NCBI GenBank assembly: GCA_031261295.1
Contig: JAISKT010000186.1
Coordinates: 1-57,982, forward strand
DNA length: 57,982 nt
Direction of reading: 5' to 3'
Origin: Candidatus Symbiothrix sp.
GTDB lineage: Bacteria; Bacteroidota; Bacteroidia; Bacteroidales; Azobacteroidaceae
A model generated the notes under the pieces. It worked only from the letters and a program-made list of their open reading frames with translations, made no database searches and was not told the origin of the DNA. The translations under genes were made by a program, and so were the position numbers. Of this stretch, positions 1,912-54,529 are shown piece by piece (position 1 is the stretch's first letter; each line of letters opens with the position of its first letter).

Positions 1912-1934
1912 TATTATATTATAAAATTACGGCA

Positions 1935-1942
1935 CAAAGATA
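1935..1942 (-). promoter_or_regulatory. Leftward -7 box for the cargo operon
   Basis: On the minus strand this reads TATCTTTG, a full match to the Bacteroides -7 consensus TAnnTTTG. A -33 TTTG at the usual 19-21 nt spacing is not seen; the nearest is 12 nt away. It is suitably placed to drive the structured leader and the two cargo genes. Confidence 0.45.
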
Positions 1943-1981
1943 GTTATTTACAACCAAATAGGAGTGATTTGAATCCATAAA

Positions 1982-6600: not shown

Positions 6601-7860
6601 GCCGGTGAATGTGAATTTTTGTTCCTCGTTTTCATACAGGAATTTTGCCGCCTCCCTGAACATATCCCAACTCGCTCCGGTTTTAGTGGCATTGTCGCAA
6701 ATATAAGCATCCGACATCATCATTCCGAAAACGGCATATTTTCCTCCTACAACCGGCTTGAAAATATCATCCGGCATTGTTCGTCCATCTATTTCTTGCG
6801 GGACAATCTCAAAACGGCGGTCGGCGTGAATGTACTTTACTTCAAACTCTTTACCCGCGAGCATACCGTCTTGAAATATCACGGTCATTGTTTCTCCCCC
6901 AATCAGGCAATCCGCGAAATTTAGATTTGCCGGTATTGATTGGTCAATAATGTCATAGAAATGTTTTTCAGCATTTACAACGTTTACCGAACTTATAGTT
7001 CCGATACGGGACGGATAGATGTTTGATAAATCCAAACTATCTTCATTCTGAGTGGTCAATGCTTTATCAGAGCGCCTCAAAGAAAAACCATCCGAATCTG
7101 TAACGTATTGACGTGCTTTTGATATGTTGTAGCCCTCTTGGTTTGAAAAATATTGTCCGTCATAACCGATTGTCTGACTTTTTGGGAGTAACAATTCGGA
7201 ACTACCATACTTGCTTGCATCAATGTTTCGTTCGCCTCCCTGTACAAACAGTATTTCAACCGGTTTGGAGTTGTTAGTATTACTCCGCCCGATACCTGAT
7301 TTGAACCCATTACCACGACCGTATGAAAGTGGTAGCGGATTTTCTTTATTATATTCAACTTTACAGAGATTGATAGTTTTACCGACAATTTCCCACTCGG
7401 TTTCAAAGGCATCCGCTATTTGGCTCAAAGCATCGCTACAAAAAGCGTGATTGTAAGATATTAGTTTCTCAACCGCATCAATACAAGTACCGACCGTCCA
7501 ACCTGTTTCCCTCTGATTCAGGTTATCAACCAACATTTGCAAGTGTTCGTGTGGCTTTGCCGTCAAAGGAAATTTCAACCGGCGCGAAGTTGTATCCTTA
7601 AACTTGTACTTATCAAGTTTTGGCGCACTTAATATAAGCGTGTACTCGAAATTCCTTGTATTTTGTTTTTTGAAATTCTCCGGTTCGGTAAGAGTATAAG
7701 TTGCTCCCTCAAACTCGCACCAAGCGCCAAGCGGTATTTCGATATGTTGCGGCAGGGAGTAATAAAGTGTCAAACTGCCTATCTGCTTTATTGCTCTGTA
7801 CCGGTAACTGTTATCGTTTACCGCTAAATCAATCTCTGTATTATTGAAATGTATAATCAT
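3685..7860 (-). CDS. Tail-tip / tail-associated fibre protein
   Basis: 1391 aa. The N-terminal 350 residues resemble the tail-associated (Tal, prophage endopeptidase-like) baseplate hub proteins that follow Dit in siphoviruses. The middle (residues about 730-1180) carries several related modules with the pattern GEYNNSYTYYKGDEV or FRGEYDSTATYYGTSN and W-rich strands, probably carbohydrate-binding. Two collagen-like runs (GEKGQDGQDG near residue 960, GDKGDKGDKGENG near 1120) act as trimeric linkers. The C-terminus is a glycine- and asparagine-rich beta structure. It lies at the tip of the virion and probably touches the host surface. It is the last gene of the structural operon and overlaps the next upstream gene by 4 nt. 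Confidence 0.85.
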   Translation of the reverse strand: MIIHFNNTEIDLAVNDNSYRYRAIKQIGSLTLYYSLPQHIEIPLGAWCEFEGATYTLTEPENFKKQNTRNFEYTLILSAPKLDKYKFKDTTSRRLKFPLTAKPHEHLQMLVDNLNQRETGWTVGTCIDAVEKLISYNHAFCSDALSQIADAFETEWEIVGKTINLCKVEYNKENPLPLSYGRGNGFKSGIGRSNTNNSKPVEILFVQGGERNIDASKYGSSELLLPKSQTIGYDGQYFSNQEGYNISKARQYVTDSDGFSLRRSDKALTTQNEDSLDLSNIYPSRIGTISSVNVVNAEKHFYDIIDQSIPANLNFADCLIGGETMTVIFQDGMLAGKEFEVKYIHADRRFEIVPQEIDGRTMPDDIFKPVVGGKYAVFGMMMSDAYICDNATKTGASWDMFREAAKFLYENEEQKFTFTGELDGIWAKKDWLNIGGRIKLGGYVLFSDNQFQPDGVLIRIIGIKDYINNPHSPQIELSNEIVGSSISSDLRKIETNEVIVDELHKDSVQFTKRRFRDSQETIDMLEAALLDKFTNSISPITVQTMAMLVGDESLQFRFVNNTTNPTEVAHNVTFNTETKVLTSPAGIIQHLTLGIDTLSSSHAINEYKFWALPVFNTPPLTDGSKKYYLYAKVSKTATTGVFYISETAIALEGVAGYYHLLMGVLNSEYEGERSYVSLYGFTEILPGRITTDKVVSADGLNFIDFLNNAARIGNANTALEFNINGDGKLRLIGTLVQSQSGDEQPLGCFRGEYNNSYTYYKGDEVTYQGSTYRFIYDTPQSGKVPTNTAYWSVIAARGEPGANGEASDWKTFAYKKSATNPGSPTDTTQIPEGWRDYPDSETTGDDKWWMVVAIVHWTGTEWIAGAFVDNVFTPGQWSEPITVTGEQGTDGQYIDFKFYATTNFNAPNWNDTLASMINPTGWLDQPPQLPLGGAIWMIEAYKQAGGTQLITTWSTPSRISGEKGQDGQDGTDIEYIYQRSTNDEEPEDISELNPVQTDDYVPVGWKDDPQGVNSTYTYEYVSVRRKENGVWGVFSPPAIWAKWGTDGAFFEYRYAKNGSTTAYPSLTSDVANPPGWTTTMPIVGALEYLWMTVSKKSASGELLQNWSTPVRTNGVKGDKGDKGDKGENGLSPAPIFRGEYDSTATYYGTSNRIDIVRYNDTYYVARVDAGSGFTNKVPTNTTYWNTFGAQFDSVATQLLLAENANIAGWVFRNGRLESQSGNVWMNGNTGEINFTGGKIQLKSDGSGQLASGGISWDADGNLFFNSNILDDYNTTNLQFTDSNGNNVVVVGYGSYGYNFNGGIIVNRLFNPSNNEIRYSRLDNNSLLFQNSNRQIGDYTAEFSGSSDGTSASLILNGTSLSVVTLKNLPTSASGLSSGRVWKDSNGYLRIV

Positions 7861-8165
7861 GTGAATTGAAATATTTTACCGTTTCCACATTTTGTTGCCC
7901 GAATAGTTGTCGTAAACGGGAAATCTTCCTTTGAAATCTGGTCAAGGGCGTTTTTGATATTTGTTGAATTGGAAAAGAATTTCCCCTCCGTACCCTCTTG
8001 TCGGTAGTGAATCAGGTAACGACCGTCTCCGTGCTTTGTTTTTACGTTCGGTATGAAATCCAAAACATCAATTTCACAGTTTACCACATCCGTGATAGAT
8101 ACCTGTTGGCAGTTGAACATTTTCCTGTCGTCATCCTGCTTTACTCCGAGTTCACTAAACTTTTT
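7857..8165 (-). CDS. Small conserved protein next to the DGR (possible OB-fold)
   Basis: 102 aa from the ATG at 8165; the frame opens 4 codons earlier, inside the preceding gene. The pattern of alternating hydrophobic strands (VSITDVVNCEIDVLDFIP, then GRYLIHYRQ, then EGKFFSN) with Lys and Arg loops suggests a small beta-barrel similar to single-strand nucleic-acid binding proteins. I cannot assign a family. It lies between a membrane protein and the tail-tip gene, a few hundred bases beyond the reverse transcriptase. It could serve the DGR (cDNA handling) or be an ordinary tail-module accessory. Confidence 0.6.
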   Translation of the reverse strand, partial: KKFSELGVKQDDDRKMFNCQQVSITDVVNCEIDVLDFIPNVKTKHGDGRYLIHYRQEGTEGKFFSNSTNIKNALDQISKEDFPFTTTIRATKCGNGKIFQFT

Positions 8166-8647
8166 CATAACATCCAAAATAATGTGAAATACATACTTGC
8201 AAATAGCGATGCCTCAATCCAAAAGGTGGGATTTCCTTTTATAGATAATATTCCAACGGAAAGGGATGTAATCAAGAGAAGAATAAGCCAATATCCGGCA
8301 AATATAATCCATAAAAGGGATGTTATGGCACACACCGCCGCCGAAGCAAAGTGTATGGTTTTTTCGTGTGATTTGAATAGTGGTGCTGTACCCACAAAAC
8401 AAAGTCCTCCTCCTGCAAATAATCCCAAAAACTGATACCAAAATCCGGCTGAAAGCTCAAACATCATCGCCATAACGGAAATCCCTACTATATAGCACCA
8501 AATCGTAAAAACATAGCCCGCGCCCTTTTTCTTCCCGCCCAAAAGGTAAAAGCTATCGGATATGGATGCCGGAACGCCGAACAAAGCTATTAATACAACT
8601 AAATACGCCACAAAAAGCGAAGCCGATATACTTAACACTGTTGCCAT
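8165..8647 (-). CDS. Integral membrane protein, unknown function
   Basis: 160 aa with about five hydrophobic segments (residues about 5-27, 43-62, 66-84, 98-130 and 140-158) and few charged residues apart from the loop GGKKKGAGY. It has no catalytic motif. It is not the lysis holin, which sits 5 kb further on with the endolysin. Its gene lies within the tail/DGR stretch, starting 4 nt after the DUF4376-like gene and overlapping the next by 1 nt. A role in superinfection exclusion or virion entry is conceivable; nothing in the sequence settles it. Confidence 0.65.
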   Translation of the reverse strand: MATVLSISASLFVAYLVVLIALFGVPASISDSFYLLGGKKKGAGYVFTIWCYIVGISVMAMMFELSAGFWYQFLGLFAGGGLCFVGTAPLFKSHEKTIHFASAAVCAITSLLWIIFAGYWLILLLITSLSVGILSIKGNPTFWIEASLFASMYFTLFWML

Positions 8648-8651
8648 TTCT

Positions 8652-9401
8652 TTAGATATTTAGAGTTACTTTTTCGGGATAATCATCGGTATGGTCATAG
8701 TCATCTGCCTCCTCAATGGTTAGCAGAGAGGAAACAGCCTGTTTGTGCTTAGAGGTAATAATAGCTGCTTTGTCTGCATATCGTTGAATGGATGCTAATA
8801 TCATATCAGCAGAATCAACCGGCAATGTGATAATCATTCCGTTCAAATCAATATCAAGGCTTTCTTCGCCAAGTTTCTTTGCCGAAGCCACAGAGTTTCC
8901 GTAAACCGCCCTCATTTCCTTATCAATCCAACAAGGAATTCCGTTTACAAGAAAGCTATTTACAGAATCGGAAGTGTCATAATCTTCTATTTCCGCCAAT
9001 TTTTCATTGATAGCATCCTGTAATGTGCGAGGGATATTGAAAATTGTCCGATAGTCGCTTTCTACCTGTCGTTTTGTCGATTTGCGCTGTTTGATAAAAT
9101 CTTCGTACTTTTTAATATACGATGAATCCAAACGACCGAATTTTGCCGCGTTGTAATCGTTTACCAACTTGCTTTCGTAGTCGCTGTTCCAAAGGACAGC
9201 AAGAACAGCTGCTATCAATTTCTCGCGAGTAACAGTCGCCCAAACAACTACCTCATCGCATTCCCAATGATTTTTCTGTTCCTGCGCTTCGTCTGTTTCT
9301 GTCGATGAAGCGGATTGAACCTCTCTAATATTCCAACGGTAAGTAAAAGAACCGTCACCGTTTGCCTCGTAAACAGAGGGCTTAGAATCGTAATGTGCCA
9401 T
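8652..9401 (-). CDS. DUF4376-like tail-fibre-associated protein
   Basis: 249 aa, soluble, without signal peptide. The C-terminal 110 residues (FLVNGIPCWIDKEMRAVYGNS onwards, ending in acidic residues) fit the DUF4376 type found near tail fibres in many phages. The N-terminal half has a run of charged helices containing KYEDFIKQRKSTKRQVESDY. Proteins of this kind are thought to assist fibre assembly or attach to the fibre; the biochemical role is not established. The gene overlaps the 3' end of the reverse transcriptase by 20 nt. Confidence 0.55.
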   Translation of the reverse strand: MAHYDSKPSVYEANGDGSFTYRWNIREVQSASSTETDEAQEQKNHWECDEVVVWATVTREKLIAAVLAVLWNSDYESKLVNDYNAAKFGRLDSSYIKKYEDFIKQRKSTKRQVESDYRTIFNIPRTLQDAINEKLAEIEDYDTSDSVNSFLVNGIPCWIDKEMRAVYGNSVASAKKLGEESLDIDLNGMIITLPVDSADMILASIQRYADKAAIITSKHKQAVSSLLTIEEADDYDHTDDYPEKVTLNI

Positions 9402-10434
9402 AAACTTCGCTTTTAATTATTGTTTTTAATAAATGTTTTGAATCACTGTATTTTGCCCAACCGAGCCAACTACTTATGCGCTGTTTGTACTCCTTTTCAG
9501 ATACATCCCTTCGTTTATTTAGCTTTGCCACAGCCTTGCAAAAATTCTTTTTTATTCCTTTCCGCATTTTTGTATGCGTATGATAGAACACAAATCCAAC
9601 AAAATCTATCCCACGTACCGCGACCGGAAAAACCTGATAATTGCCTTTCAACGATACATTTAGTTCCGAATGGAAGTAGTTGTTGATAAGAACCAATAAA
9701 CCATGCAGAAACGCTTTATCGCTGTGAAGAAAAACCATATCATCGGCGTATCGGAAGTAGTATTTTATTCCAATATCTTCCTTTATCCAATGGTCGAAAT
9801 AGGTCAAATACAAGTTTGCCAAATACTGTGAAAGATAATTCCCTATCGGAACACCGTCCGCACTATCAATAATATGGTCAATCAGCCACAACGTATCAGT
9901 ACATTTTATTTTCCGGCGTACAATTTGCTTTAATACTTCGTGGTCAATACTCGGATAGAATTTTCGGATGTCTATTTTTAAGCAGTATTTCGTATTTTCA
10001 ACATCGCGCATTGCGATTTTTACTTTTCGCATAGCACCGTGAATCCCTCGTTTTTTTATACATGAAAAACTATCAGCCGTGAACACAGACACCCATATAG
10101 GTTCAAGGATATTCATAACAGCGTGGTGTACGATTCGGTCGGGGAAATACGGGAGCCGGAAAATCTCGCGTTCTTTCGGTTCGTATATCTTGAAAATATG
10201 ATACTCCGAAGTCCTAAATGTTTTGTTTTTAAGCATTTCATGAAGTTTCAAGATATTTTCTTCCCTATTCTTATCGTGCGTTTTTACACCATAGGAATTT
10301 AACTTCCCCCGTCTCGCTTTTTCATCAGCAAGTCGGAGGTTGTCAATAGCTATTATCTTTTCATATAAATTACCTACTCTTTTCATACTTTGCTTTTCAC
10401 TTTGAGAATTTTCGGTTTCCCTACCAATACTCAT
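9382..10434 (-). CDS. Diversity-generating retroelement reverse transcriptase
   Basis: 350 aa from 10434, or 334 aa from the ATG at 10386. It copies the template RNA with errors at adenines, producing cDNA that replaces a variable region. The catalytic motifs are clear: an aspartate in KIDIRKFYPS (153-162), YADD at 229-232, and IGNYLSQ at 197-203, which matches the DGR-specific (I/V/L)GxxxSQ signature rather than the QGxxxSP of other retroelements. Template TR1 lies just upstream. The first 16 codons coincide with a 17-nt block also found beside TR2, where it is not the start of an RT, so the first residues may really be guide RNA and 10386 the true start. No typical Avd accessory gene is seen nearby. 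Confidence 0.95.
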   Translation of the reverse strand: MSIGRETENSQSEKQSMKRVGNLYEKIIAIDNLRLADEKARRGKLNSYGVKTHDKNREENILKLHEMLKNKTFRTSEYHIFKIYEPKEREIFRLPYFPDRIVHHAVMNILEPIWVSVFTADSFSCIKKRGIHGAMRKVKIAMRDVENTKYCLKIDIRKFYPSIDHEVLKQIVRRKIKCTDTLWLIDHIIDSADGVPIGNYLSQYLANLYLTYFDHWIKEDIGIKYYFRYADDMVFLHSDKAFLHGLLVLINNYFHSELNVSLKGNYQVFPVAVRGIDFVGFVFYHTHTKMRKGIKKNFCKAVAKLNKRRDVSEKEYKQRISSWLGWAKYSDSKHLLKTIIKSEVYGTLRF

Positions 10435-10632
10435 TTGAGGTTGTCATCTTCTGCCAAGCGGCAAGGTCGTTGCTCTTTTTATCTGTTTTTTTACCTTTGA
10501 AAACCATAGGTGGGAGCTGATATTCGTATTCGAATTCGAGGGGGTGTTATTCGAATGAGCGTAACTGAGACCTGCATTCGCACTGTTATTCGCGTTACCG
10601 CCGAAAAGCACACCACAAGAACAACCAACCTT
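10411..10632 (-). ncRNA. DGR template RNA 1 (TR1 with flanking structural elements)
   Basis: On the minus strand: a 5' flank at 10617-10632, the template at 10505-10616, then a spacer with a complementary segment (10463-10477), a TGCC-loop-GGCA hairpin (10452-10463) and a 17-nt block (10411-10427). The 5' flank pairs with 10463-10477 over 15 bp with one bulge and two G-U pairs, closing a stem round the template. All four elements recur in the same order around TR2 at 45.8 kb. A structured spacer downstream of the template is known to be needed for priming in the BPP-1 DGR. Confidence 0.8.
10505..10616 (-). repeat. DGR template repeat TR1
   Basis: 112 nt matching VR1 (10671-10782) with a fixed offset of 166. 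On the coding strand TR1 has 29 adenines; 20 differ in VR1 and the other 83 positions are all identical. Read in the frame of the target, the template is rich in AAC/AAT codons (for example GNANNSANAG), the usual design for changing Asn to many residues. It ends at the IMH-star motif CACCTATG. Confidence 0.95.
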
Positions 10633-10654: not shown

Positions 10655-12082
10655 TTACGCTGGGATAAAGCAAAGGCGGGAGCCGATACTCGTAGTCGAA
10701 CCCGAGGGGGCGCCATCCGAATGAGCGCAACCGAGACCCGCAGCCGCACCGTTAATCGCGCCACCGCCGAAAAGCACACCACGCAAAGAGCTTGATGTTA
10801 CAGATATATAATGATTGTCGCACCAATACGTGGTAGAACCTCCTCCGTCCAATGCAGATATTATTTCTCCAAATTCACCCAAAATCATTTCTTTGACGTA
10901 TCCTCCCGCTCTTGCTTCCAACCCACGCATTTCATAATTGGCGTAACCGTTATCAATATAGTTTGCCGGATTATTGGCAACATAAACCTTGCTTGTACCG
11001 CCGTCTGCATCTGTTTTGACTTCTATGTTGATTCCGTCCGTCCATTTCCAAATGTGTCCGAAAGGATTTTCAATGCCCCGATAACGGTTTGCATAAACCG
11101 TTACGATTGAACTTTCGTCCCCATTCACATCAACGGAATAGGAAACTTCGCCGGAAAAGTTTCCGAGTGAATCTGTTTGTCCGCAAGGAATGAATGGATA
11201 GTAACCGTTAAGAGTATTCCATTGCGTTGATGAAAGTGTCGTTACACCGTTTCCCAAACCGCCTTGTTTATAACCGTTTGCATCGGTTTGAGCGTTGAAA
11301 GCTGCTTGCGAATTTAGGTTGGCATATTCGATGTAGTAAAGCCATGCAGCATCTTTGTAGGCATTGTAATCGTTGCAATTCCATTGTGTACCGGCTCCGC
11401 GCAACCGAGCGGCTGTTCTGAATTGTGTACGACTTTTTGAGGTGGTCGGACGGCCAAGGACAGAGCGATAAGTTCCGTCCCATGCAGATTGATTGTTACC
11501 GCCACGATAATCTACGTCCATATTGACCACAGAACACAGTTTGCCGGTACTCCGCTCAAAAGTGGCTTCGTATGCAGATACATACTTCTTTGGTACAGAG
11601 TGGTATCCGGGCAAAGGGAGTTCGCTGATTTTTGCACGGCGTTTTGTTCCGTCTGTTTCAAATTTTCGGAAGTGCGCAGGTATTTCAACCATAACCTGCC
11701 CACGTGCGCCGCTCCGGTCGTATGCAGCCCAATTTGTCGGATGCAAATATTCGACAACCGTTCCGTCATCGCTCAAAAGACAACCCCTCATGCGGTTCTG
11801 AATGGGCAAACTTCTATGAAATGCCAAATTTCCTATGCGGGTGCAAACGGGTGATGATACAGCCGTATCAAACTCTATTCCGTAGGCGCATTGTTCCTCA
11901 AGATAAGGAAGTAAAGCAGCTAATTTCGCTTGTTTGCTTTCCCCATCTACATCCAAAACCTCAACGATTAAATCGAGAGGGTTTCCCTCTCCAATGGAGG
12001 GCAATTCATTCAATCGCTTTCCGTTTGTGAAAGCGGTTATAATTTGAAGCACGATAGCTTCTTGGTCTGTTGTTAATGCCAT
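10655..12082 (-). CDS. DGR-diversified tail (receptor-binding) protein
   Basis: 475 aa. The C-terminal part (residues about 150-475) looks like the C-type-lectin/formylglycine-generating-enzyme fold used by DGR targets, with W-rich segments such as GHIWKWTDGINIE and the final strand GSRLCFIPA. Residues 434-471 are encoded by VR1 and lie on the expected ligand-binding face. The N-terminal 100 residues are helical and probably attach the protein to the tail. The gene sits between a fibre-stalk gene and the template/reverse transcriptase, so it is very likely a receptor-binding protein whose specificity is altered by mutagenic retrohoming. Confidence 0.92.
   Translation of the reverse strand: MALTTDQEAIVLQIITAFTNGKRLNELPSIGEGNPLDLIVEVLDVDGESKQAKLAALLPYLEEQCAYGIEFDTAVSSPVCTRIGNLAFHRSLPIQNRMRGCLLSDDGTVVEYLHPTNWAAYDRSGARGQVMVEIPAHFRKFETDGTKRRAKISELPLPGYHSVPKKYVSAYEATFERSTGKLCSVVNMDVDYRGGNNQSAWDGTYRSVLGRPTTSKSRTQFRTAARLRGAGTQWNCNDYNAYKDAAWLYYIEYANLNSQAAFNAQTDANGYKQGGLGNGVTTLSSTQWNTLNGYYPFIPCGQTDSLGNFSGEVSYSVDVNGDESSIVTVYANRYRGIENPFGHIWKWTDGINIEVKTDADGGTSKVYVANNPANYIDNGYANYEMRGLEARAGGYVKEMILGEFGEIISALDGGGSTTYWCDNHYISVTSSSLRGVLFGGGAINGAAAGLGCAHSDGAPSGSTTSIGSRLCFIPA
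10671..10782 (-). repeat. DGR variable region VR1
   Basis: It encodes residues about 434-471 of the target protein. All 20 differences from TR1 fall at template adenines. It ends with the initiation-of-mutagenic-homing motif CGCCTTTGC, present identically in the two distant variable regions at 46.05 and 47.62 kb. Confidence 0.95.
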
Positions 12083-19410: not shown

Positions 19411-19429
19411 TTTTTTAATTATTAGTTTG

Positions 19430-19502
19430 TTGCGGATGCAGGACTTGAACCTGCGACCTCTTGGATATGAACCAAGCGAGCTGCCAACTGCTCTAATCCG
19501 CT
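19430..19502 (-). tRNA. tRNA-Met-type (anticodon CAT)
   Basis: A 73-nt cloverleaf on the minus strand. Acceptor AGCGGAT/ATCCGCA, D-stem GAGC/GCTC, anticodon stem CTTGG/CCAAG with loop TTCATAT, T-arm GCAGG TTCAAGT CCTGC, discriminator A, no encoded CCA. Position 1 and 72 form an A-A mismatch, reminiscent of the weak 1:72 pair of initiator tRNAs, but the G-C-rich anticodon stem of initiators is absent. CAT could read Met or, if lysidine-modified, Ile (AUA). It sits inside the structural operon, so it must be cut out of the late mRNA. Confidence 0.93.
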
Positions 19503-19510
19503 GTACCAAC

Positions 19511-19675
19511 TTATTTTTTATCATCGGGAGCGGCGGGTTCTTTTTCTTTTTCCGCCACGTTCGCTTTAATAAGTTCATCGGCGCGTTTTGCATCCACTTC
19601 CAATACTGTTCCTATCGGACGGAACTTGTTATTTGCGGTTTTATCCACAAATCCTGTCGTTACTACTACTTTCAT
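19511..19675 (-). CDS. Small phage structural-module protein
   Basis: 54 aa, starting MKVVVTTGFVDKTANNKF and ending in an acidic/lysine-rich tail (PAAPDDKK). The first 40 residues look like a compact beta/alpha unit (GTVLEVDAKRADELIKANV). This pattern is common in small proteins next to tail tube or head-tail connector genes in phages of Bacteroidetes and Firmicutes. It lies 21 nt after the tube gene and 8 nt before the tRNA. Function unknown. Confidence 0.7.
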   Translation of the reverse strand: MKVVVTTGFVDKTANNKFRPIGTVLEVDAKRADELIKANVAEKEKEPAAPDDKK

Positions 19676-38683: not shown

Positions 38684-39670
38684 TTACATATTCCATTGCT
38701 TTAATCCGTCATTCCACCACCACGCGGCTGATTGGCGGGGCGGCGCATCCATCGGAACGGTTGTTTTTCCTGTTCCGTAGGTTCGCCTGCCGTTTTCTAT
38801 CCGCTCATCATAACCGAGTTGTACGGAAGTTGTACCGGAGAAAGTTGTCTCTTTGTCTTTATTGTCGTAATTGCCTTCGATGATTTTTACCCAATTTTTT
38901 GAGTTTTCAAATACCCAATCAAAGCTCGCCTGCCAACCGTTTTTGTTATCTCCCCGCATGAATTTTGAATTTTGCGCCTTGTCGAAAATCTTTTTTACTG
39001 TTTCCATTTGCCCGGAAAGGTCTTTTCCGAACTCGCCCATACGGACTTTTATTTTCGCTTTTCTCGCATCTGTAATTTTCACAACTTGAGGAAAATTTGT
39101 GCAGGTCGAATTCCACAATTCGACAATATCCTGATAAGGATATATTATACTTTTCTCTCCTTTACTCTCCTCTACTATACTCTCCTCTACTATGCTTATG
39201 TTTGGGTTATCTTTTTCGGAATTAACATTACTGTCGGTTATGTTTTGGTTATCTTTTTCGGAATTATAATAAGGGTTGGATTGTCCTTTTTTGAAATTAG
39301 GATTACCGCCCTTCTTTCCGTTTTCACTTTGCTTTTCTCTATATTCAACAACGGATATAAGCCTATTTTTGTGCGTTTTTGAATATAGCTTTCCGTCTTG
39401 TATTTGCATCAGTTCAATCTTGATGCAATACTCAACTATTTCAGTCAATTCTTCGGAAGAAATATCAAAATCTGCGGCAAGAAGTTCGATATTTATCTCA
39501 TTCCAATCCAATTCAAAATAATCGCTATCGGTTAATGCTTCCAAAAGAAAACACCAAATCGCATACCCTGTATGTTTGAATTTTCGGCGAAGCGCCTTAA
39601 TCCTTACATCATTCCGCATATCCGCGTCATGAGTGAAGTATTCTGCATTGTTTTTCTTTGGTCTTGCCAT
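38684..39670 (-). CDS. Replisome organizer-like protein (DUF4373/Lin1244-type N-terminus)
   Basis: 328 aa. The N-terminal 110 residues (YFTHDADMRNDVRIKALRRK, then YAIWCFLLEALTDSDYF) match the winged-helix domain found at the start of many phage replication initiators. The middle carries a short repeat (SEKDNQNIT, SEKDNPNIS), then a helical C-terminal domain with WQASFDWVFENSKNWVKI, as in helicase loaders. It probably binds the origin and recruits the primase-helicase encoded 4 nt downstream. Confidence 0.8.
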   Translation of the reverse strand: MARPKKNNAEYFTHDADMRNDVRIKALRRKFKHTGYAIWCFLLEALTDSDYFELDWNEINIELLAADFDISSEELTEIVEYCIKIELMQIQDGKLYSKTHKNRLISVVEYREKQSENGKKGGNPNFKKGQSNPYYNSEKDNQNITDSNVNSEKDNPNISIVEESIVEESKGEKSIIYPYQDIVELWNSTCTNFPQVVKITDARKAKIKVRMGEFGKDLSGQMETVKKIFDKAQNSKFMRGDNKNGWQASFDWVFENSKNWVKIIEGNYDNKDKETTFSGTTSVQLGYDERIENGRRTYGTGKTTVPMDAPPRQSAAWWWNDGLKQWNM

Positions 39671-42213: not shown

Positions 42214-44148
42214 TTAATTAATTTTCTTATATTTCTGATTATCAATATTATAAATTTCATTTTCAAAAAGTATATTACATAAAGCTTCGCATAAAGCCTT
42301 TGCCGTCCTCACTTCTACGGCGTTTCCAATAAATTTCTTTTGGTCTGCTTGACTTCCAACCAAAACATAGTCTTTCGGGAACCCCATTATTTGTTTTAGT
42401 TCCGGTATCCTAAGCATTCGCATTTTAATGTCTATGATACCGTATAACGCCATAAATTCCTTTATTTTAAGCATTGATGGTGTATCTGTTTCTTCCGGCA
42501 CAATGGCAATTTCTCCGCTTTCTGTCATGATTAAATAAGGCGGCATTTTATCCATCCGGGCGATAAGAGTAAAGCATGGTTTGTCAATCGAACCTCCGGG
42601 AGATGTAAATTGTGGATTCATAAGATAGTGCCATTTCCTATTAGCTGTTACAACCGGTGCGGGGCTATCAATATCGCTCCCTGTGTTATTAAAATTTGTA
42701 TTCATCAACCAAGGCCGTAAACTTACAAGATTATATTTCGGGTTCGCTGTTATGCAGCCCAATGGTTGTTCGGGGCTTGCCGGTTTGCTGTTTCCAAATT
42801 GTTGGTCTATGAATTTGCATGAAACAAGCCTTTGTTTTGGGACAGGCATAACAGCAGGGCAAGGTTTATCCGTCCCTGAATGTTGCCCTCCTCCGGTATA
42901 GTAATTCATGAAAAACGGAGATATAAGTGATAAACGGTCTTTACAAGTAACCACCGGAGCCGGTTCACTTAATTTATGGTTATGTCCGTTTCCATAATAG
43001 GCAGATATGAACGAATGATGATCGTGTGTTGTTACCGCTCCGGCAGGTGCATCTACGGAGATGTTTTTTCCGTCCGGACTGCCTCCGTAATATTTTGATA
43101 AGAAATGAGTACTTACTAATTCCTGATTCCCTCCGGTGGCGGTTATTGTTCTCGCCGGGCGCTCAATGGAAATGATTTTACTTTCCGGCTTTCCGGTGTT
43201 TCTCTGTTGGATGAAATTTACTTTTGCAAGCCCAAATCTGTTGCATGTTGTTACTGTGTTGCAAGGCTCGTCAATAGACTTGATGCGATTAGGACGTTGG
43301 TTGTACTGGATTAAATATTTGTCTTTGCCTCCCGCAACGAATTTCACAAGTCCTGAGTAAATCCGCTCAAGTGTTGCATCAACAAGAGGCTTTTTCCGTC
43401 CGAATATGGATTCGCCCTCGTCTGAAAAATCCAACACTTCCCGGACCGGTTTCCATGATGCTAATGTTCCGAAAATCCCTGTGTCCCCATTCTTTGTATG
43501 GGTTGGTTCGGGAAATACAATCGGTAGTTTTTGCTTTGCAAATATTCCGAAAAAACGGCTTCGGGAAGTATATGCCCCATAATTAGCCGAGTTTAATATT
43601 CGGTGTTCAAACTGATAACCGTATTTACAAACATTTGATACCCATTGCCGGTAACAACGCCCGGAATCTTTGCTTATCGGCTTTCCGTTATCGTCAAGGT
43701 CTCCCCAACTCATAAACTCCTCAACATTTTCAATCTGTATGAAATCTGGGTCAATGGATTTGATATACCGATACAAATGCTCGGCCAAGGTGCGGCTATC
43801 TGCATCACGAGGCTGTCCGCCCTTTGCCTTGCTGAAATTGGTGCATTCAAGCGAAGCCCATAAAACGATAAAAGCATCGGGATATAATTCTCTCATTTTC
43901 TTGATATGAGCAATGAGTGGGGATAATTCCAATGTCCGTATATCTTCCGTGAAGTGCAAAGCATTCGGGTGGTTTTCTGCGTGGCTTGCAATAGCGTTTT
44001 TGTCATGATTGACACACCCTATAACCTTTGCACATTTACGTCCTTTGTGTTTTGCATTTTCTACACCGGTTGAAGTTCCTCCGGCTCCGCAAAACAGGTC
44101 TATATACAAGAGCTTTATGTCTTTATTATTCAAATAATCCAAGTTCAT
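42214..44148 (-). CDS. C5-cytosine DNA methyltransferase with repeat-rich target domain
   Basis: 644 aa. Motif I LYIDLFCGAGGTSTGVE (residues 14-30), motif IV with catalytic Cys in LECTNFSKAKGG near 103, and motif VI IENVEEF near 141. The usual PCQ is replaced by ECT, though the cysteine is kept. Residues about 275-540 contain some eight degenerate repeats of 30-38 aa with cores such as SEPAPVVTCKDRLSLISP and DSPAPVVTANRKWHYL, in the place of the target-recognition domain. Motif IX-X returns at the end (IPELKQIMGFPKDY, then FIGNAVEVRTAKAL). It probably protects phage DNA from restriction. Confidence 0.9.
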   Translation of the reverse strand: MNLDYLNNKDIKLLYIDLFCGAGGTSTGVENAKHKGRKCAKVIGCVNHDKNAIASHAENHPNALHFTEDIRTLELSPLIAHIKKMRELYPDAFIVLWASLECTNFSKAKGGQPRDADSRTLAEHLYRYIKSIDPDFIQIENVEEFMSWGDLDDNGKPISKDSGRCYRQWVSNVCKYGYQFEHRILNSANYGAYTSRSRFFGIFAKQKLPIVFPEPTHTKNGDTGIFGTLASWKPVREVLDFSDEGESIFGRKKPLVDATLERIYSGLVKFVAGGKDKYLIQYNQRPNRIKSIDEPCNTVTTCNRFGLAKVNFIQQRNTGKPESKIISIERPARTITATGGNQELVSTHFLSKYYGGSPDGKNISVDAPAGAVTTHDHHSFISAYYGNGHNHKLSEPAPVVTCKDRLSLISPFFMNYYTGGGQHSGTDKPCPAVMPVPKQRLVSCKFIDQQFGNSKPASPEQPLGCITANPKYNLVSLRPWLMNTNFNNTGSDIDSPAPVVTANRKWHYLMNPQFTSPGGSIDKPCFTLIARMDKMPPYLIMTESGEIAIVPEETDTPSMLKIKEFMALYGIIDIKMRMLRIPELKQIMGFPKDYVLVGSQADQKKFIGNAVEVRTAKALCEALCNILFENEIYNIDNQKYKKIN

Positions 44149-45085
44149 TTCGTATTCTTTTATTTGCTATTTCTACATTTTTAGGTTGTAATTCAATACC
44201 GATATAATTCCTGTTTAATTTTCGGGCTACGACAGCAGTTGTACCAGAACCCATAAATGGGTCAAGAACAATACCTCCCTCCGGGCATCCGGCTTTTATA
44301 CATGGCAGAATAAGTTTCTCAGGGTAAACAGCGAAATGGGCATCTTTAAAATTCGCTGTCGGGCAAGTCCATACGGAGCGTTTGTTCCTGTATGGACGAT
44401 AATCATAGGCGTTTCCGCTTTTGGTTCTGCAAAACACATCGGGATTGGCGGTATATTTCTTTCCTCCGTATCTTTGAGGTCTTAATTCCGTTTTTTGTGT
44501 TTGGTTATCATGGTTAGGTTTGGTGTTTTCGACCGGTTCGGCTATTGCTTTACTGTCGAAATAATACTTATTCGATTTGCTTAACAGGAAAATGTATTCA
44601 TGTGACTTTGTGCATCTATCCGTAACACTCTCCGGCATAGGATTAGGTTTTTGCCAAATAATATCTTGCCGGAGATACCAACCGTCATTACGCAAGGCAA
44701 ATGCCAACATCCAAGGAATACCTATCAAATCTTTTGCTTTTAATCCGTCAATTTTTGTAGGATTTGTAGCGTGTGAAGCACGGTTGGAGACTTGTACTCT
44801 GTTTTGAACGGTTTTATCTCCTTTTGCTTTTCCGCTGCCGTTATAACTGTCCCCGATGTTTAACCATAATGTTCCGTCGTCCCTAAGAACCCTTTTAACC
44901 TCGCCGAAAATCGCAACTAACTTTTGTACATATTCCTCCGGTGTTTTTTCTAATCCTATTTGCTCTTTGTGTCCGTAATCTCTTAAATTGAAGTACGGAA
45001 CAGATGTAACACAACAATGACAGGTTTTATCAGCCAATTTTTTAAGTTCGCACAACGCCTCGCCGGTATGGATAACATTAATCAT
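44126..45085 (-). CDS. N4-cytosine/N6-adenine DNA methyltransferase
   Basis: 319 aa. Motif IV TSVPYFNLRDYG at about residues 27-38 (a variant of TSPPY), followed by GTLWLNIGDSYNGSG, and motif I DPFMGSGTTAVVA near 277. The order IV...I places it in the beta class of amino-methylases. The central region has the usual variable recognition part. It overlaps the C5-methyltransferase by 23 nt and the gene above by 8 nt. With the ParB fusion and the C5 enzyme this gives three DNA methylases in one phage. Confidence 0.92.
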   Translation of the reverse strand: MINVIHTGEALCELKKLADKTCHCCVTSVPYFNLRDYGHKEQIGLEKTPEEYVQKLVAIFGEVKRVLRDDGTLWLNIGDSYNGSGKAKGDKTVQNRVQVSNRASHATNPTKIDGLKAKDLIGIPWMLAFALRNDGWYLRQDIIWQKPNPMPESVTDRCTKSHEYIFLLSKSNKYYFDSKAIAEPVENTKPNHDNQTQKTELRPQRYGGKKYTANPDVFCRTKSGNAYDYRPYRNKRSVWTCPTANFKDAHFAVYPEKLILPCIKAGCPEGGIVLDPFMGSGTTAVVARKLNRNYIGIELQPKNVEIANKRIRNELGLFE

Positions 45086-45737: not shown

Positions 45738-45789
45738 TTTATCTATTTTTTGTGGTTTATAAATTTTCTTTGCCTTTCTATTCGGAGTC

Positions 45790-45970
45790 TTCGGTTTCCC
45801 TACCAACACCTTTTGAATTTGTTGTTTTTCGCCAAGAGGCGAGGTTGTTTGTCTTTGATTATTTTTTGAGCATAGGTGAGCTGCGTTACCTGCATTCGGA
45901 TTCGAATATTCGTAGTTCGTATCGTTGAACGTGAAACCTGAAGGGTACAACCCACAAAGACAAACAACCT
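45790..45970 (-). ncRNA. DGR template RNA 2 (TR2 with flanking structural elements)
   Basis: In order on the minus strand: 5' flank 45955-45970, template 45871-45945, complementary flank 45842-45857 (16 bp, perfect with the 5' flank), hairpin CGCC-AAGA-GGCG on the plus strand (45830-45841), and a 17-nt block (45790-45806) identical to 10411-10427. Compared with TR1, the hairpin has a T-A pair changed to C-G with the stem intact. The conserved order suggests the same reverse transcriptase recognises both. Confidence 0.8.
45871..45945 (-). repeat. DGR template repeat TR2
   Basis: 75 nt. The coding strand has 22 adenines. VR2a differs at 16 of them and VR2b at 20, while all 53 other positions are identical in both. 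In the frame of the targets it reads PSGFTFNDTNYEYSNPNAG, rich in AAC, AAT and TAC codons. The end CACCTATG matches that of TR1. Confidence 0.95.
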
Positions 45971-45977
45971 TACTTTC

Positions 45978-46454
45978 TTATTTCGTTATTATCCCTTTGT
46001 GAACCTCTGTAATCTGTTTTCCCGAATATATCGCTAACGATTCGTCTTTCAGGCAAAGGCGAGCCGCGCTACCCGCATCCGGACACGAAGATGCGCAGTC
46101 CGCATCGTCGAACGCGAAACCCGAAGGGGTGATAGAATTGAACCAAGGCAACCATTTCTTTTGATTTCCGTCATTGTAGTCGGCTTTCCATCCCTCATTT
46201 AGCGCCTCTGTGAAAACAGCGGCATTGTATAATGATTGAAACCATTCGCGCATATCTTCCGGCGCATCACTGAATTTAGGAGTAGCCGGTCGCCCTGTTT
46301 CCTTAAAGGCGTCATCCAACGTTTTTACCCTGTCAGTCACTTTTTCGCTGAAAATTTCGGAGCCGAATAATTCTTCGAGTAACGTTTTTTCTCTTAATTC
46401 TCCGTCGCGATATTTCGCCAAAATCTCTTTTTTACTTATGCTTAATGTTGTCAT
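45978..46454 (-). CDS. DGR-diversified early protein (variable protein 2)
   Basis: 158 aa. Residues 109-134 are encoded by VR2a. The region before it is helical (GRPATPKFSDAPEDMREWFQ), then ALNEGWKADY...KKWLPWF leads into the variable segment and the conserved end AARLCLKDESLAIYSGKQ. The GF...(A/S)RLC pattern also ends the tail target at 10655, so these may be reduced C-type-lectin-like domains. It lacks a signal peptide and lies among recombination genes, unlike usual DGR targets. The partner is unknown. Shares its last 85 residues with the protein at 47549. Confidence 0.85.
   Translation of the reverse strand: MTTLSISKKEILAKYRDGELREKTLLEELFGSEIFSEKVTDRVKTLDDAFKETGRPATPKFSDAPEDMREWFQSLYNAAVFTEALNEGWKADYNDGNQKKWLPWFNSITPSGFAFDDADCASSCPDAGSAARLCLKDESLAIYSGKQITEVHKGIITK
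46054..46128 (-). repeat. DGR variable region VR2a
   Basis: Aligned with TR2 at an offset of 183 without gaps: 16 differences, all at template adenines. It contains the CGCCTTTGC initiation motif on the coding strand. Confidence 0.95.
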
Positions 46455-46605
46455 AATTTATATACTTTGATTTTTTTAGCTTATTTATCATTATGCCTGC
46501 CATACGCTTTGTATTTGCTGTTTTTGTATCATTTCCGGGCAAGCTTCGGAGAGCAGCGAGAAGTTTCGTTATCTCCTCCCGCTGCTTGTTTGATATTGCA
46601 TACAT
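46432..46605 (-). CDS. Small early protein
   Basis: 57 aa, MYAISNKQREEITKLLAALR and a basic end (MINKLKKSKYINYDNIKHK). It is amphipathic and helical, a kind of small protein common in Bacteroidetes phages between recombination genes. It starts 3 nt after the YqaJ gene and overlaps the start of variable protein 2 by 23 nt in another frame. It fills what would otherwise be a 153-nt gap. Confidence 0.6.
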   Translation of the reverse strand: MYAISNKQREEITKLLAALRSLPGNDTKTANTKRMAGIMINKLKKSKYINYDNIKHK

Positions 46606-46607
46606 GG

Positions 46608-47552
46608 CTATTTAAGCAAAAACCTCCGGGAGCCGGGAACGGTCATTGTGTACTGTCGTTCAAGTTCGGGATGTTCCTTGCAGAATAGTTTGCTGTCGAA
46701 CTTTTCGCTGTCCTTGGCCGCTTTCCATGTTGCAAGTGTTTGCCCGCAGTAAGAGATAGCTTCCGCATCGCCAAATGTGAGTTTGATTTTTGCTTCGAGT
46801 TCGTCTTTCCTTTCGTCAAGTTTTTTGAGTTCTTCCTTAACTCCTTTCAGCTCTGTGTAGGCTTGTAGAATCTCCTCCGTTGTTTCAATGATTTTGCCGT
46901 CTGTGTGGCGGGCGTATTTTGTAACAACGTCCTCAACGCTTGTAGATTCAGGTTCTTGTCCTCCGATGATATTGTCCGTCCAAAAACGTTCAACTTCCTC
47001 GCTTATCCATCTGAAAAAGTTGGGAACGAGCGCAATGTCCTTGTATCCAAATTCCCTACCGGATGAAAGCCATGCGAGAGAACCTTGCTCAAAACCGGAA
47101 ACACCTAATTGGTATTGCACCTGTACGAACCAATGCTTTGGCAAATCGTCTGCATCAATGGTTTTCTGTGTGGTTTTACACTCCAATATGCCCTTGTTTT
47201 CGTTGTTTTTAGGCATATCGGGAAGCCAAAACGTCCGGTCGGGTGATACCTGCATAAAAGGCTTTTCGGCACTTCTGTAAAGCCAATCACCGGCAGAAGA
47301 TTTAATCACTTCGCGCCCTGTTTCATCCGCCCAAAACATTGTTACGGCATCTTCCAAATAATGCCCTGCTTTCATTGCAAACGTTTCGTCTTTTGCCGGG
47401 TCAATTCCTTGTTTACGCCGCCATAATTGATACGGTGTTTCAAATGGATTCAGTCCGAGAATGGAAGCAACTTCGGAGCTTCCAATACCGCTTTTTCGGT
47501 GTTCAAGCCATTCGGTTCTATCCTTTGGCTTAATGATTGTTACATTGTTCAT
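46608..47552 (-). CDS. YqaJ-like (lambda exonuclease-type) recombination nuclease
   Basis: 314 aa from the ATG at 47552, which overlaps the stop of variable protein 3 (ATGA). It begins with the family signature WLEHRKSGIGSSEVASILGL and carries the PD-(D/E)XK core GILECKTTQ and the later Q-rich helix HWFVQVQYQLGV. With RecT (encoded 1.2 kb upstream) it forms an exonuclease/annealing pair that processes phage DNA ends. The C-terminal 80 residues are a coiled coil and a short beta unit. It ends in a true TAG stop. Confidence 0.92.
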   Translation of the reverse strand: MNNVTIIKPKDRTEWLEHRKSGIGSSEVASILGLNPFETPYQLWRRKQGIDPAKDETFAMKAGHYLEDAVTMFWADETGREVIKSSAGDWLYRSAEKPFMQVSPDRTFWLPDMPKNNENKGILECKTTQKTIDADDLPKHWFVQVQYQLGVSGFEQGSLAWLSSGREFGYKDIALVPNFFRWISEEVERFWTDNIIGGQEPESTSVEDVVTKYARHTDGKIIETTEEILQAYTELKGVKEELKKLDERKDELEAKIKLTFGDAEAISYCGQTLATWKAAKDSEKFDSKLFCKEHPELERQYTMTVPGSRRFLLK

Positions 47553-47905
47553 AAGATAAATCCCTCCCATAAATCTAAAAATTGTTTACCCGCATACGCG
47601 GCGAGTTCTTCGTCTTTCAGGCAAAGGCGAGCCGCGTGACCCGCAAGCGGAAGCGAAAAGCCGCAGCCCGCAACGTAGAACGCGAAACCCGAAGGGCTTA
47701 CATAGAACCACGGATACCATTTTTTTTCGTTTGAATTTCTGTAATCAGATATCCAACCCTCATTGAGTGCTTTAATCACGGTTTTTAACTTCTTGTAAGC
47801 AATTTCATCTGGCGTTGCATCGCCAAAATCTGTTATCGGTTCTATGCCGAGTACTTTACATGCGTCTTCGTAAGACGTTACCTGTTCTTTAATGTTCTGT
47901 TTCAT
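47549..47905 (-). CDS. DGR-diversified early protein (variable protein 3)
   Basis: 118 aa, the smallest of the three targets. Residues 70-95 come from VR2b. The N-terminus EDACKVLGIEPITDFGDATPDE is a helical unit; then KALNEGWISDY and KKWYPWFYVSPSGFAF lead into the variable part, followed by AARLCLKDEELAAYAGKQFLDL. It shares the second half with variable protein 2. It overlaps the exonuclease gene by 4 nt and lies between it and the DUF1351 gene, so all are made together early in infection. Confidence 0.85.
   Translation of the reverse strand: MKQNIKEQVTSYEDACKVLGIEPITDFGDATPDEIAYKKLKTVIKALNEGWISDYRNSNEKKWYPWFYVSPSGFAFYVAGCGFSLPLAGHAARLCLKDEELAAYAGKQFLDLWEGFIL
47622..47696 (-). repeat. DGR variable region VR2b
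   Basis: 75 nt matching TR2 without gaps. Twenty of the 22 template adenines are changed and all other positions kept, so it has diverged more from the template than VR2a. Contains the CGCCTTTGC initiation motif. Confidence 0.95.
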
Positions 47906-47920
47906 AAAATATTAAAAATA

Positions 47921-48799
47921 TTATAATTGTATTTTTTCAAAATCAATCCCGTGTTCATTCATAAAATCACCGAGCGCGATTATATTTTCACGAGTAGTCG
48001 TTACCTTGAATGCTCGTGTGAGCATTTGTTCTTGTTGCGGTTCCTGTTTGGGAGATTCAACTTCTTTTATTTCCTATTGCGCATACGGTATATTGTCAAA
48101 AGGTAATCCCGGAGAAACAGAAGCGGCTTTAGATTTGGCTTCTTCCTCTGCCGCCTTTGCTTTTTCCTTGTTTTGCTTTAGCGTATTTGCGTATTGGATA
48201 GTGCTGTTAATATTCAGCGTATCCAAATACAGAGATTTAAGCAAATCAACATCTTCTCCGATAGCTTCCAGAGTTGAAATATCATCGTTGATTTTTGATA
48301 TTTTAGCATCTATTTCATCATAGATGTTTTTCGGCTTTTCCGTCTTATTCAGCCATTTAATTTCAAATATCTTGTCAAGGGAAACGAGCGTAAATTGCTT
48401 GCTCTCCCAATATCGGTTAATCGTTTCGCGCTTTTCTTTCCGTGCCTTTTCATCGCTCTGTTTAACGACCGTATCAATCTTTGCCGAACATTCTGAAATC
48501 AGCTTTACCGTATCCGAAACAACATCTTTGAACTCTGAAAACGGTATCATAAACTCGCGCTCAATTTCAAGGCGTTTTGCATTCAACGCTTTAGCGGCAT
48601 TATTTAATAATGCCTTGTCTTTCTTTGCGAGGTCGATATTGCTTTCATCGTAGTTTACAATATCATATCGTTGTAATCCTCCTTTTACAATATCCCTTAT
48701 CTGCTCGGCATTAGTTGTCAATCTACCAAGCATTTTTTCGGAAACGACTAATTGTAAATCGGTTTCCTGTATTTCTACTTTTACCAAATCTTCGTTCAT
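47921..48799 (-). pseudogene. DUF1351-like early protein interrupted by an in-frame TAG
   Basis: The gene from 48799 codes for 241 aa (coiled-coil protein with a conserved region REFMIPFSEFKDVVSD), then meets TAG at 48074-48076. The same frame remains open for 50 more codons to a TAA at 47921. The extension RAFKVTTTRENIIALGDFM then HGIDFEKIQL resembles the usual end of DUF1351 proteins, which lie beside RecT in many phages. The stop is thus probably a recent nonsense change (CAG to TAG is one step), or else is read through. TAG is a true stop elsewhere in this phage, so the code is not reassigned. The short product may still work. Confidence 0.75.
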
Positions 48800-49704
48800 A
48801 ATAAAGAATTTTGTTTAGGTTTATTACCTCCTTGTGGAGCTTCCTGCTTCTCCTTTATCTCTCCCGTTTCAGTATCTACTACCGTTGCTTCGTCGTAAGC
48901 AATATCTTCAATCTTAGCCTGTCCATTTTGGAAGTTTTCGGGCTTGAGTATTGCTTCATCCGTTGCAATAGCTTCTGCTTGGTCGATGTTAAGGGGTAGA
49001 TATTTTGACAACTGTTTGAGGGCTTTTGCTTTCGCCATTGCATCGTAATCAGTCGCCCACGCTCCGACGGGATTTCCTTTTTGCATTGGGCTTCTCATAC
49101 GCAGTCTTTCAACCTCCGATTTGCTTAATACTACGAAATTGTAACCGCCGTCATTAAAATGGCATACAGCGTAAACGTGTGTGATAGGCTTGCTGCTGTC
49201 AAATTTTGGTTTATGTTCAATGGTTGGATTCAACCCGAAAGCGGCGTTAAATTCATCCCCCTCTCTCACAACTTCGGCGTAAACCATTTTTATTTTACCG
49301 CTCCGGCGGGCGAGTTCGATATACCCTTTATATCCAATTTGAAACTGTACGTCCTTTCCATAAGGTACGAAATAGCAGTATCCAAGAACATCAACCGGAG
49401 GGAATCCGAGTATGCTTGCCTGCATAACAGAACCTAAAAGGCTTGCAGGAGTGCATTTTGCTATTGCAGGATTTCGATAAATAGTAGAGGCTGCCATTTG
49501 TAACACCCTGTCAGCGGTTAGGTGCTTCGGTAAAACCTGAGCGACACGGTCTTTCATACCGGAAAGATATTGCCCTATTTCGCCCTGATTTAGTCCTGCC
49601 AACGAACCACTTTGTGCCACTTTTTGAACAATGGTTGGCTTTTGGCTTCCGTGCGATGTTGCTTGTTGTATCGCTCCATTAACTTTGTCATTTACGTTAT
49701 TCAT
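48796..49704 (-). CDS. recT: RecT single-strand annealing protein
   Basis: 302 aa. The segments MQASILGFPPVDVLGYCYFVPYGKDVQFQIGY (family core, near residue 90-120) and YDAMAKAKALKQLSKYLPL near 230 are diagnostic of RecT. It anneals complementary single strands during phage recombination and replication. The C-terminal 60 residues are acidic and disordered. Its gene overlaps DUF1351 by 4 nt and is followed further along by the YqaJ nuclease, forming a standard recombination cassette into which two diversified genes are inserted. Confidence 0.93.
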   Translation of the reverse strand: MNNVNDKVNGAIQQATSHGSQKPTIVQKVAQSGSLAGLNQGEIGQYLSGMKDRVAQVLPKHLTADRVLQMAASTIYRNPAIAKCTPASLLGSVMQASILGFPPVDVLGYCYFVPYGKDVQFQIGYKGYIELARRSGKIKMVYAEVVREGDEFNAAFGLNPTIEHKPKFDSSKPITHVYAVCHFNDGGYNFVVLSKSEVERLRMRSPMQKGNPVGAWATDYDAMAKAKALKQLSKYLPLNIDQAEAIATDEAILKPENFQNGQAKIEDIAYDEATVVDTETGEIKEKQEAPQGGNKPKQNSLL

Positions 49705-54260: not shown

Positions 54261-54529
54261 TAAAGCGATTTTTTGAGGCAATATACGCCTTAAAAGAAAG
54301 GAAAGTTATCCGGGGAAAACAGACTTTTACCCGCCGTTATGGTATTAACAATCGGAATTTTTGGCTTCTTGAACAAGATATGTCCCGCGATATATTTCAA
54401 ATGGCTTGGCTTTCCTACCTTGTTTCTGATTACGGAGTTTCACCAGATTGGATTATTACCGGAAAAGGAGATATGTTCAAAAAAGAACCTCCGCTAAGAT
54501 TGGGACATACAAACTCAAAGAAGAAATGA
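54233..54529 (+). CDS. Small XRE-like protein sharing the antirepressor C-terminal domain
   Basis: 98 aa. Almost the whole length (KVIRGKQTFTRRYGINNRNF, then WLSYLVSDYGVSPDWIITGK) matches residues 195-262 of the BRO-type antirepressor at 26482. A 22-nt stretch is identical at the DNA level between the two (about 54309 and 27085). The end resembles the helix-turn-helix close of XRE repressors. It overlaps the integrase start (ATGA). It could be the DNA-binding partner, or a competitor, of the antirepressor. Confidence 0.75.
   Translation: MQSEESQKVVKRFFEAIYALKERKVIRGKQTFTRRYGINNRNFWLLEQDMSRDIFQMAWLSYLVSDYGVSPDWIITGKGDMFKKEPPLRLGHTNSKKK

Follow-up and report, generated by a model that had tools for sequence, protein, structure and literature searches.

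A diversity-generating retroelement template without a local reverse transcriptase in a Bacteroidales phage contig, probably served in trans by a tail-module enzyme

Diversity-generating retroelements (DGRs) of the BPP-1 type combine a template repeat (TR), a variable repeat (VR) in the 3' part of a target gene, adenine-specific differences between the two, a reverse transcriptase (RT) and a structured RNA between TR and RT (PMC12875486). Some phages have more than one target: Quimbyvirus has one phage RT, a structural target and a distant target thought to be non-structural (PMC8008677), and Bacuni phages also possess a distant second target (PMC8143477). Here we analyse a second DGR template, TR2, and its two variable repeats, VR2a and VR2b, in a 57,982-nucleotide stretch of Candidatus Symbiothrix sp. 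DNA (contig JAISKT010000186.1, assembly GCA_031261295.1), called the window below. The window also carries a tail-module DGR with its own template (TR1) and variable repeat (VR1), and is a single contig (C374) of a 388-contig draft genome (G000) that is 87.75% complete with 5.33% contamination. What is said here of PMC12875486, PMC8008677, PMC8143477, PMC10907252, PMC6642488 and PMC8144416 reflects excerpts of those papers.

The locus shares with BPP-1 type DGRs the TR, the VR in the 3' part of its targets, the adenine-specific changes, an RT of the phrog_1423 kind and a structured RNA between TR and RT; it differs in that the RT is not in cis to TR2 and in that no perfect hairpin of at least 5 bp lies within 120 nt behind VR2a or VR2b (PMC12875486). 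Like Quimbyvirus, the window phage has one RT with a structural and a distant target (PMC8008677). Thiohalocapsa PB-PSB1 likewise has targets that lack a full DGR nearby and presumably rely on components at other sites for their diversification, but those are duplicated loci on a bacterial chromosome, whereas the window holds a phage with two non-matching TRs and one RT on the contig (PMC10907252). More than one TR per phage genome also occurs in the zeta crAss-like phages Lera and ct1yV3, whose TR2 and TR3 pairs show non-adenine changes (3 and 10, respectively) and are thought to be inactive now, compared with 0/106 in the window (PMC12386605). Several TRs and targets are present in Stenotrophomonas SKA14 (two TRs, six VRs), and 216 of 271 DGRs with multiple VRs have a single TR (PMC6642488).

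On the minus strand, TR2 (45945 to 45871) aligns without gaps to both VR2a (46128 to 46054) and VR2b (47696 to 47622). VR2a differs from it by 12 A-to-G, 2 A-to-C and 2 A-to-T changes, and VR2b by 10 A-to-G, 6 A-to-T and 4 A-to-C changes; every non-adenine base of TR2 is identical in both (C 21/21, T 18/18, G 14/14), so that pooled 36/44 adenines and 0/106 other positions differ. An earlier note on this DNA had reported this gapless match with 16 and 20 of the 22 adenines altered and none of the other 53 positions, and we reproduced it exactly. When both strands of the window were scanned for runs of at least 45 nt without a non-adenine mismatch, both TR2 pairs lengthened by 1 base per side (77 nt, 23 adenines, 17 and 21 of them changed), and the sole further pair in the window was TR1/VR1 (29 adenines, 20 changed, no non-adenine mismatch). 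TR1 matches neither VR2a nor VR2b, and TR2 does not match VR1; because TR1 fails to match VR2a and VR2b, TR2 is the sole template found for them in the window. TR2 is a DGR template, with the adenine-specific TR/VR differences of such an element, but it has no RT in cis beside it.

The same signature appears between relatives. The relative L243 belongs to a different genus within the family and retains the YqaJ and VR2a genes in the same order at 76% identical DNA. Its VR differs from TR2 at 18/22 adenines and 2/53 other positions, and third-codon differences between the two loci number 61/133 outside the VR and 1/25 inside it, with 0/19 at those inside where TR2 has a base other than adenine. 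The chance of this pattern is about 1e-5, assuming independent sites, and it is what copying from a near-identical template would be predicted to leave. The earlier note's interpretation, adenine-specific mutagenic retrohoming, is upheld by the repeats in the window and again by this comparison, in which the VR2a differences are adenine-specific amid extensive third-codon divergence. VR2a and VR2b may still be undergoing such retrohoming.

The RNA flanks connect TR2 to RT-linked templates. A protein search with the window RT kept the best 80 of 276 IMG/VR loci, 67 of which have a TR/VR pair. Alignment of the TR 3' flanks of RT-adjacent loci, which left out eight TR entries without an end anchor, revealed a conserved two-hairpin element reaching as far as the RT start; in its RNAalifold consensus, 11/12 pairs show two-sided pair-preserving changes. 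A model, R1, was built from 49 RT-adjacent templates with the window excluded (49 of 51 references, with L012 and L013 out; the long-insert loci L025, L033, L034 and L035 had been excluded earlier by length). R1 scored TR2 at 71.8 bits and TR1 at 71.1, the next match being 15.2, and at E<=0.01 its sole matches in the draft genome were TR2 and TR1, with none outside the window. TR2 has the structured template-RNA flank of a DGR, conserved in its predicted structure. Direct alignment of the TR1 and TR2 3' flanks gives a score of 63, where 500 shuffles reached no more than 37, which indicates that the two are homologous. At the scale of the order, the scaffold (E<=1e-4) is present in 10/393 genomes, with two scaffolds only in G000; of 39 virus records, 37 have exactly one and two have none. 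Not all of these phages share the scaffold: R1 has no match in LoVEphage and only a weak one (24.5 bits) in Bacteroides phage Versailles.

The sequences on either side of the template can also pair with each other, in 12/12 positions in both TR2 and TR1; in TR2 this stem continues over 16 bases. It is predicted to shut the template into a loop. Across 51 of 53 distinct loci (L017 and L072, with 9 and 7 of 12 pairs, were dropped), 597/612 cells pair, compared with a mean of 454 and a maximum of 484 in 1000 swaps, a count that is inflated relative to the swap control because the arms were picked for best pairing. The TR2 scaffold itself is the Rfam family RF03020 (RT-17), with a score above the gathering threshold (51.7 versus 40.4 bits); TR1 falls just below it (39.0), and four of nine other loci scanned pass it (L005, L008, L053 and L066). 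RT-17 reportedly originates from Weinberg 2017. Rfam types RF03020 as an sRNA gene; here we assign it as the 3' scaffold of DGR template RNA, even where no RT follows.

RTs of the window-RT group sit beside two types of cassette. The long-TR type has one VR, located in a tail-type gene; in the short-TR type the VRs lie in two or three small genes, usually some 190 and 570 bp upstream of the TR. The spacing of 183 bp between VR2a and TR2 fits the short-TR type, and VR2b lies farther away because the YqaJ gene intervenes. Three small target genes rather than two are present in the short-TR cassettes of L229, L267, L268 and L080. The 5' flank of TR2 is matched over 25 bases by 14 contigs, 13 of which have an RT directly behind the TR; the other, L230, stops before the RT position. 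We examined 94 stretches for the scaffold (80 of 91 listed and these 14, including contigs seen before: L160/L029, L234/L066 and L240/L069), and 48/50 scaffold loci have an RT directly downstream.

The two exceptions, L180 and L187, lack the RT as TR2 does. L180 is syntenic with the TR2 region: it has the YqaJ-VR2a order and the DUF1351 gene, a YqaJ gene 76% identical in DNA to that of the window, and the same RT-less junction, with the same scaffold end (69.6 bits) followed directly by a different gene. In L187 (11260-11560, minus strand, of a 71.4 kb record with no match to phrog_1423), the TR and scaffold are intact, but all that is left of the RT after them is, by eye, a stub of 11 codons, and the TR/VR pair has a 115-nt core with zero non-adenine mismatches and 24/34 adenines changed. 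A third relative without its RT is L270 (302-600, plus strand), in which the TR and scaffold (46.1 bits) are followed by an apparent accessory-gene 3' end, with no RT in the 10.3 kb examined.

Other genomes show targeting over long distances. In all ten that yielded a distant VR2-like gene together with a stretch carrying RT and TR (one listing contributed 5 of its 14 records; G118, G315 and G043 have a VR2-like gene, with no scaffold or RT in the sequence covered, and are not counted), the RT-linked TR templates an adenine-specific VR in the distant VR2-like gene (Table 1). The counts are for best local segments and leave mismatches past their ends uncounted, LoVEphage having been compared separately. 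With the distant sequence shuffled, the threshold was never reached in 15 runs covering five of the ten genomes. The distance from RT to distant gene is about 15 to 56 kb; the gene is flanked by a NinB-type gene and a replisome organizer in Versailles, and lies among methyltransferase and RtcB genes in LoVEphage. The VR2-like genes of Buchavirus, LoVEphage and Versailles had been considered as non-DGR targets with no TR or scaffold nearby, an idea refuted by their clean VRs against the distant TR. As 10/10 genomes show a distant VR, the DGRs of this set have, as a rule, a second target outside the tail module. The earlier note called it unusual for one phage to have targets in two functional modules; these ten relatives and the published case of Quimbyvirus (PMC8008677) show that it is not. 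What is unusual is that TR2 is a separate template with no RT: unlike the ten genomes, the window phage has a template of its own for the second targets. LoVEphage illustrates this: its protein QVQ57199.1, a relative of the VR2 proteins, has a VR for which the RT-linked TR is the template, one TR serving both targets, while in the window a second TR stands apart with a scaffold of its own. The methyltransferase and RtcB genes around QVQ57199.1 agree with the neighbourhood described for the distant, supposedly non-structural target of Quimbyvirus (PMC8008677), and the two may be the same target.

In nine of the genomes, sites changed in both the tail VR and the distant VR carry the same base in 61/95 cases, compared with 37 expected from within-repeat shuffling (40/69 versus 26 without the last 20 nt, and 33/57 versus 24 without the last 30). 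Constraint acting on particular positions could account for this, and we make no claim that the specificities of the two VRs match.

We consider it probable that TR2 belongs to an RT-less, small-target cassette served in trans by the tail-module RT 35 kb away. On this account VR2b, VR2a and TR2 would be a DGR cassette that lost its own RT gene and kept the template, the template end and the full TR-RNA scaffold. TR2 RNA would be made from the surrounding minus-strand operon, bound through its scaffold by the tail-module RT (with any accessory protein) and reverse transcribed with adenine errors, and the cDNA would replace VR2a and VR2b. The most likely enzyme is the RT at 9382-10386. It matches phrog_1423 (E 1.1e-129), groups with RTs located behind TR/VR pairs and is of the DGR kind in the same element. 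That an RT acts in trans, as the earlier note proposed, is supported by the scaffold common to TR1 and TR2 and by the ten relatives in which the RT-linked TR hits a distant gene of the same family. The note's further statement that the ORF at 9382-10434 is the only RT stands for the window; for the host genome it does not, as PF00078 matches a further RT, on contig C109, besides that of the window.

That second RT raises the quite unlikely alternative that another enzyme, the C109 RT or one from a co-resident phage, serves TR2. C109 has an RT (1234-2427, minus strand), and an open frame next to it contains an Asn-rich stretch that resembles a TR; the whole looks like another DGR, and trans action between loci has been argued for Thiohalocapsa (PMC10907252). 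However, the C109 RT is only 36-37% identical to the window RT in matched pieces, and R1 finds no scaffold beyond the window in this genome, whereas TR1, beside the window RT, has one. Somewhat less improbable, though still to be given little weight, is a fossil: the RT was lost, TR2 and its VRs froze and nothing is diversified now. The missing RT near TR2 and the recurrent RT deletion seen in L187 and L270 accord with this, and L187 demonstrates that a clean TR/VR pair can be visible without a known RT. Against it, the divergence of the YqaJ gene in L180, which shares the RT-less junction, indicates that the loss is not recent, yet the scaffolds of L180 and TR2 still score 69.6 and 71.8 bits and TR2 shows no non-adenine difference from its VRs. 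An assembly artefact, or a chimera of two phages within one contig of a metagenome-assembled genome, can almost be dismissed. The draft genome does contain contamination, and VR/TR repeats can collapse, as L180 may show; but the YqaJ-VR2a order is kept independently in L243 and L180 (with the DUF1351 gene in L180 too), and in ten other genomes, too, a single contig or record contains an RT/TR and a distant VR2-like gene. Among these ten are two named Bacteroides phages and three crAss-like records whose titles call them complete.

Several observations weigh against service of TR2 by the tail-module RT. The 5' flanks of TR1 and TR2 align with a score of 31, barely above the shuffle maximum of 30. 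The window RT clusters with long-TR cassettes (in a quick, midpoint-rooted tree with some long branches), and the RTs of cassettes with the TR2 5' flank fall in another clade and are about 60% identical, so that use of one scaffold across both clades is something we infer. The ten relatives have a single TR for both targets, which is long-range targeting and not service of a second TR; the window does not have such a single TR for both modules. In L180 (1968-2447, minus strand), VR2a and TR2 are fused into a hybrid repeat with the 5' half of the VR and the 3' half of the TR, which may be a real deletion or an assembly collapse. A search of the L243 genome found neither scaffold nor RT, and the host genome has the C109 RT described above.

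The VR2 targets belong to phrog_11581, which all 46 aligned family members match and which the end of the TR1 tail-type target matches weakly (E 0.00025). Pfam gave no family above chance for VR2a and VR2b, and one stray match each for two families over a 50-member set. The VR2b protein had no match in plasmids, nor in any of 21 genome-contig stretches; at the nucleotide level, the TR2 locus had no relatives in the phage collection. An AlphaFold model of VR2b has a mean predicted local distance difference test score of 84 with confident helices, falling to 51-53 around residues 71-90, in the variable part. Compared with the PDB for a C-type lectin fold, it had no match at E<=0.001; its best matches in a viral library are uncharacterised phage proteins. 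The terms C-type lectin, initiation of mutagenic homing (IMH) and early module belong to general knowledge of the field. We can only guess that the VR2 proteins are intracellular variable binders in phage-host or phage-phage conflict; the neighbours of VR2-like genes are consistent with the role in phage-host conflict suggested in PMC8008677.

All features described around TR2 and around the RT lie on the minus strand (Table 1), in the order VR2b gene, YqaJ gene, VR2a gene, TR2. Downstream of the TR2 scaffold, a short A/T-rich likeness (AAATTTATA) was all that was found of an RT remnant, too weak for any claim. The RT probably starts with MKRVGNLY at 10386, to judge from its relatives. The one candidate for a DGR accessory protein (Avd or other) is the product of 7857-8177, which matches phrog_19665 alone; its FPFTTTI end resembles, by eye, that of the small ORF behind the RT in L003, L004 and L256. 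The gene at 48796-49704 we take to be RecT, and the region 42214-45085 presumably encodes a DNA methyltransferase. Elsewhere, the window contains a tRNA gene (Rfam, 60.6 bits; 19430-19502, minus strand) within the open reading frame 18904-19593, a 95-nt direct repeat (27169-27263 and 54392-54486, 73% identical) in two genes 27 kb apart, and a tandem pair of 42-nt units (39196-39279, 83% identical) within the open reading frame 38684-39670.

Table 1 Features of the window and adenine-specific VRs in distant VR2-like genes of ten other genomes (aa, amino acids; ORF, open reading frame).
Feature	Position	Strand	Remarks
TR2, template repeat	45871..45945	-	A-only scan: 45870-45946
VR2a	46054..46128	-	16/22 A changed, 0/53 other sites
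VR2b	47622..47696	-	20/22 A changed, 0/53 other sites
TR2-closing stem, 5' arm (16 bp, perfect)	45955..45970	-	coordinates read off sequence
TR2-closing stem, 3' arm	45842..45857	-	coordinates read off sequence
TR2 3' RNA scaffold, two hairpins	45768..45851	-	R1 71.8 bits
Rfam RF03020 (RT-17) match in TR2 3' flank	45766-45846	-	51.7 bits
Stretch 3' of TR2 scaffold, where related cassettes start the RT; no RT here	45741..45767	-	by-eye comparison with L066, L263
Target gene with VR2a, 158 aa, phrog_11581 (unknown function)	45978..46454	-	
YqaJ-type recombinase gene, between both target genes	46608..47570	-	PF09588, 3.4e-22
Target gene with VR2b, 118 aa, phrog_11581	47549..47905	-	
DUF1351 gene, adjoining the VR2b gene upstream	48074..48799	-	PF07083, 9.2e-24
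Possible accessory gene (phrog_19665, unknown function)	7857..8177	-	
DGR-type RT	9382..10386	-	ORF open to 10434
TR1 3' RNA scaffold	10388..10473	-	R1 71.1 bits; RT-17 39.0 bits (gathering 40.4)
TR1	10505..10616	-	
VR1	10671..10782	-	
Tail-type target gene of TR1 (phrog_5302 tail protein)	10655..12082	-	
Distant VR, G010			A changed 12/20, non-A 0/55
Distant VR, G104			A changed 12/21, non-A 1/58
Distant VR, G152			A changed 14/20, non-A 0/54
Distant VR, G300			A changed 11/20, non-A 2/54
Distant VR, G352			A changed 22/30, non-A 0/75
Distant VR, Bacteroides phage Versailles			A changed 14/22, non-A 0/85
Distant VR, crAss-like cr52_1			A changed 12/18, non-A 0/45
Distant VR, crAss-like cr56_1			A changed 16/22, non-A 0/43
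Distant VR, crAss-like cr60_1			A changed 13/18, non-A 1/38
Distant VR, LoVEphage			A changed 19/25, non-A 0/87

In open-licence literature other than preprints, we found no description of an RT-less DGR template with an intact scaffold in a phage, of RT-17 as a DGR template scaffold, or of a distant VR in Buchavirus or Versailles. The TR2 case parts a DGR template from its enzyme in nature, and the closing stem with the RT-17 scaffold offers a recognisable RNA handle for finding RT-less templates. The Roux 2021 survey sought repeats around an RT (PMC8144416), and surveys centred in this way could miss TR2 and distant VRs; whole-genome repeat searches, as in PMC8008677, would catch both.

More tentatively, and with somewhat less than even confidence, we suggest that DGR cassettes may persist as RT-less satellites, made up of template, closing stem and RT-17 scaffold, that make use in trans of whichever DGR RT is compatible, including RTs of a different clade. 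Here one RT would run two unrelated templates, for a tail-type protein and for the small-protein family, and that family would be a second DGR target, largely overlooked so far, across Bacteroidales phages, crAss-like Buchavirus among them, acting intracellularly as a variable recognition protein. The phages of this set repeatedly diversify, in addition to a tail-type protein, a small protein whose gene lies outside the tail module. Since Versailles and LoVEphage are named phages in which this is so, the function of the small protein, for which the conflict role is our conjecture, is testable.

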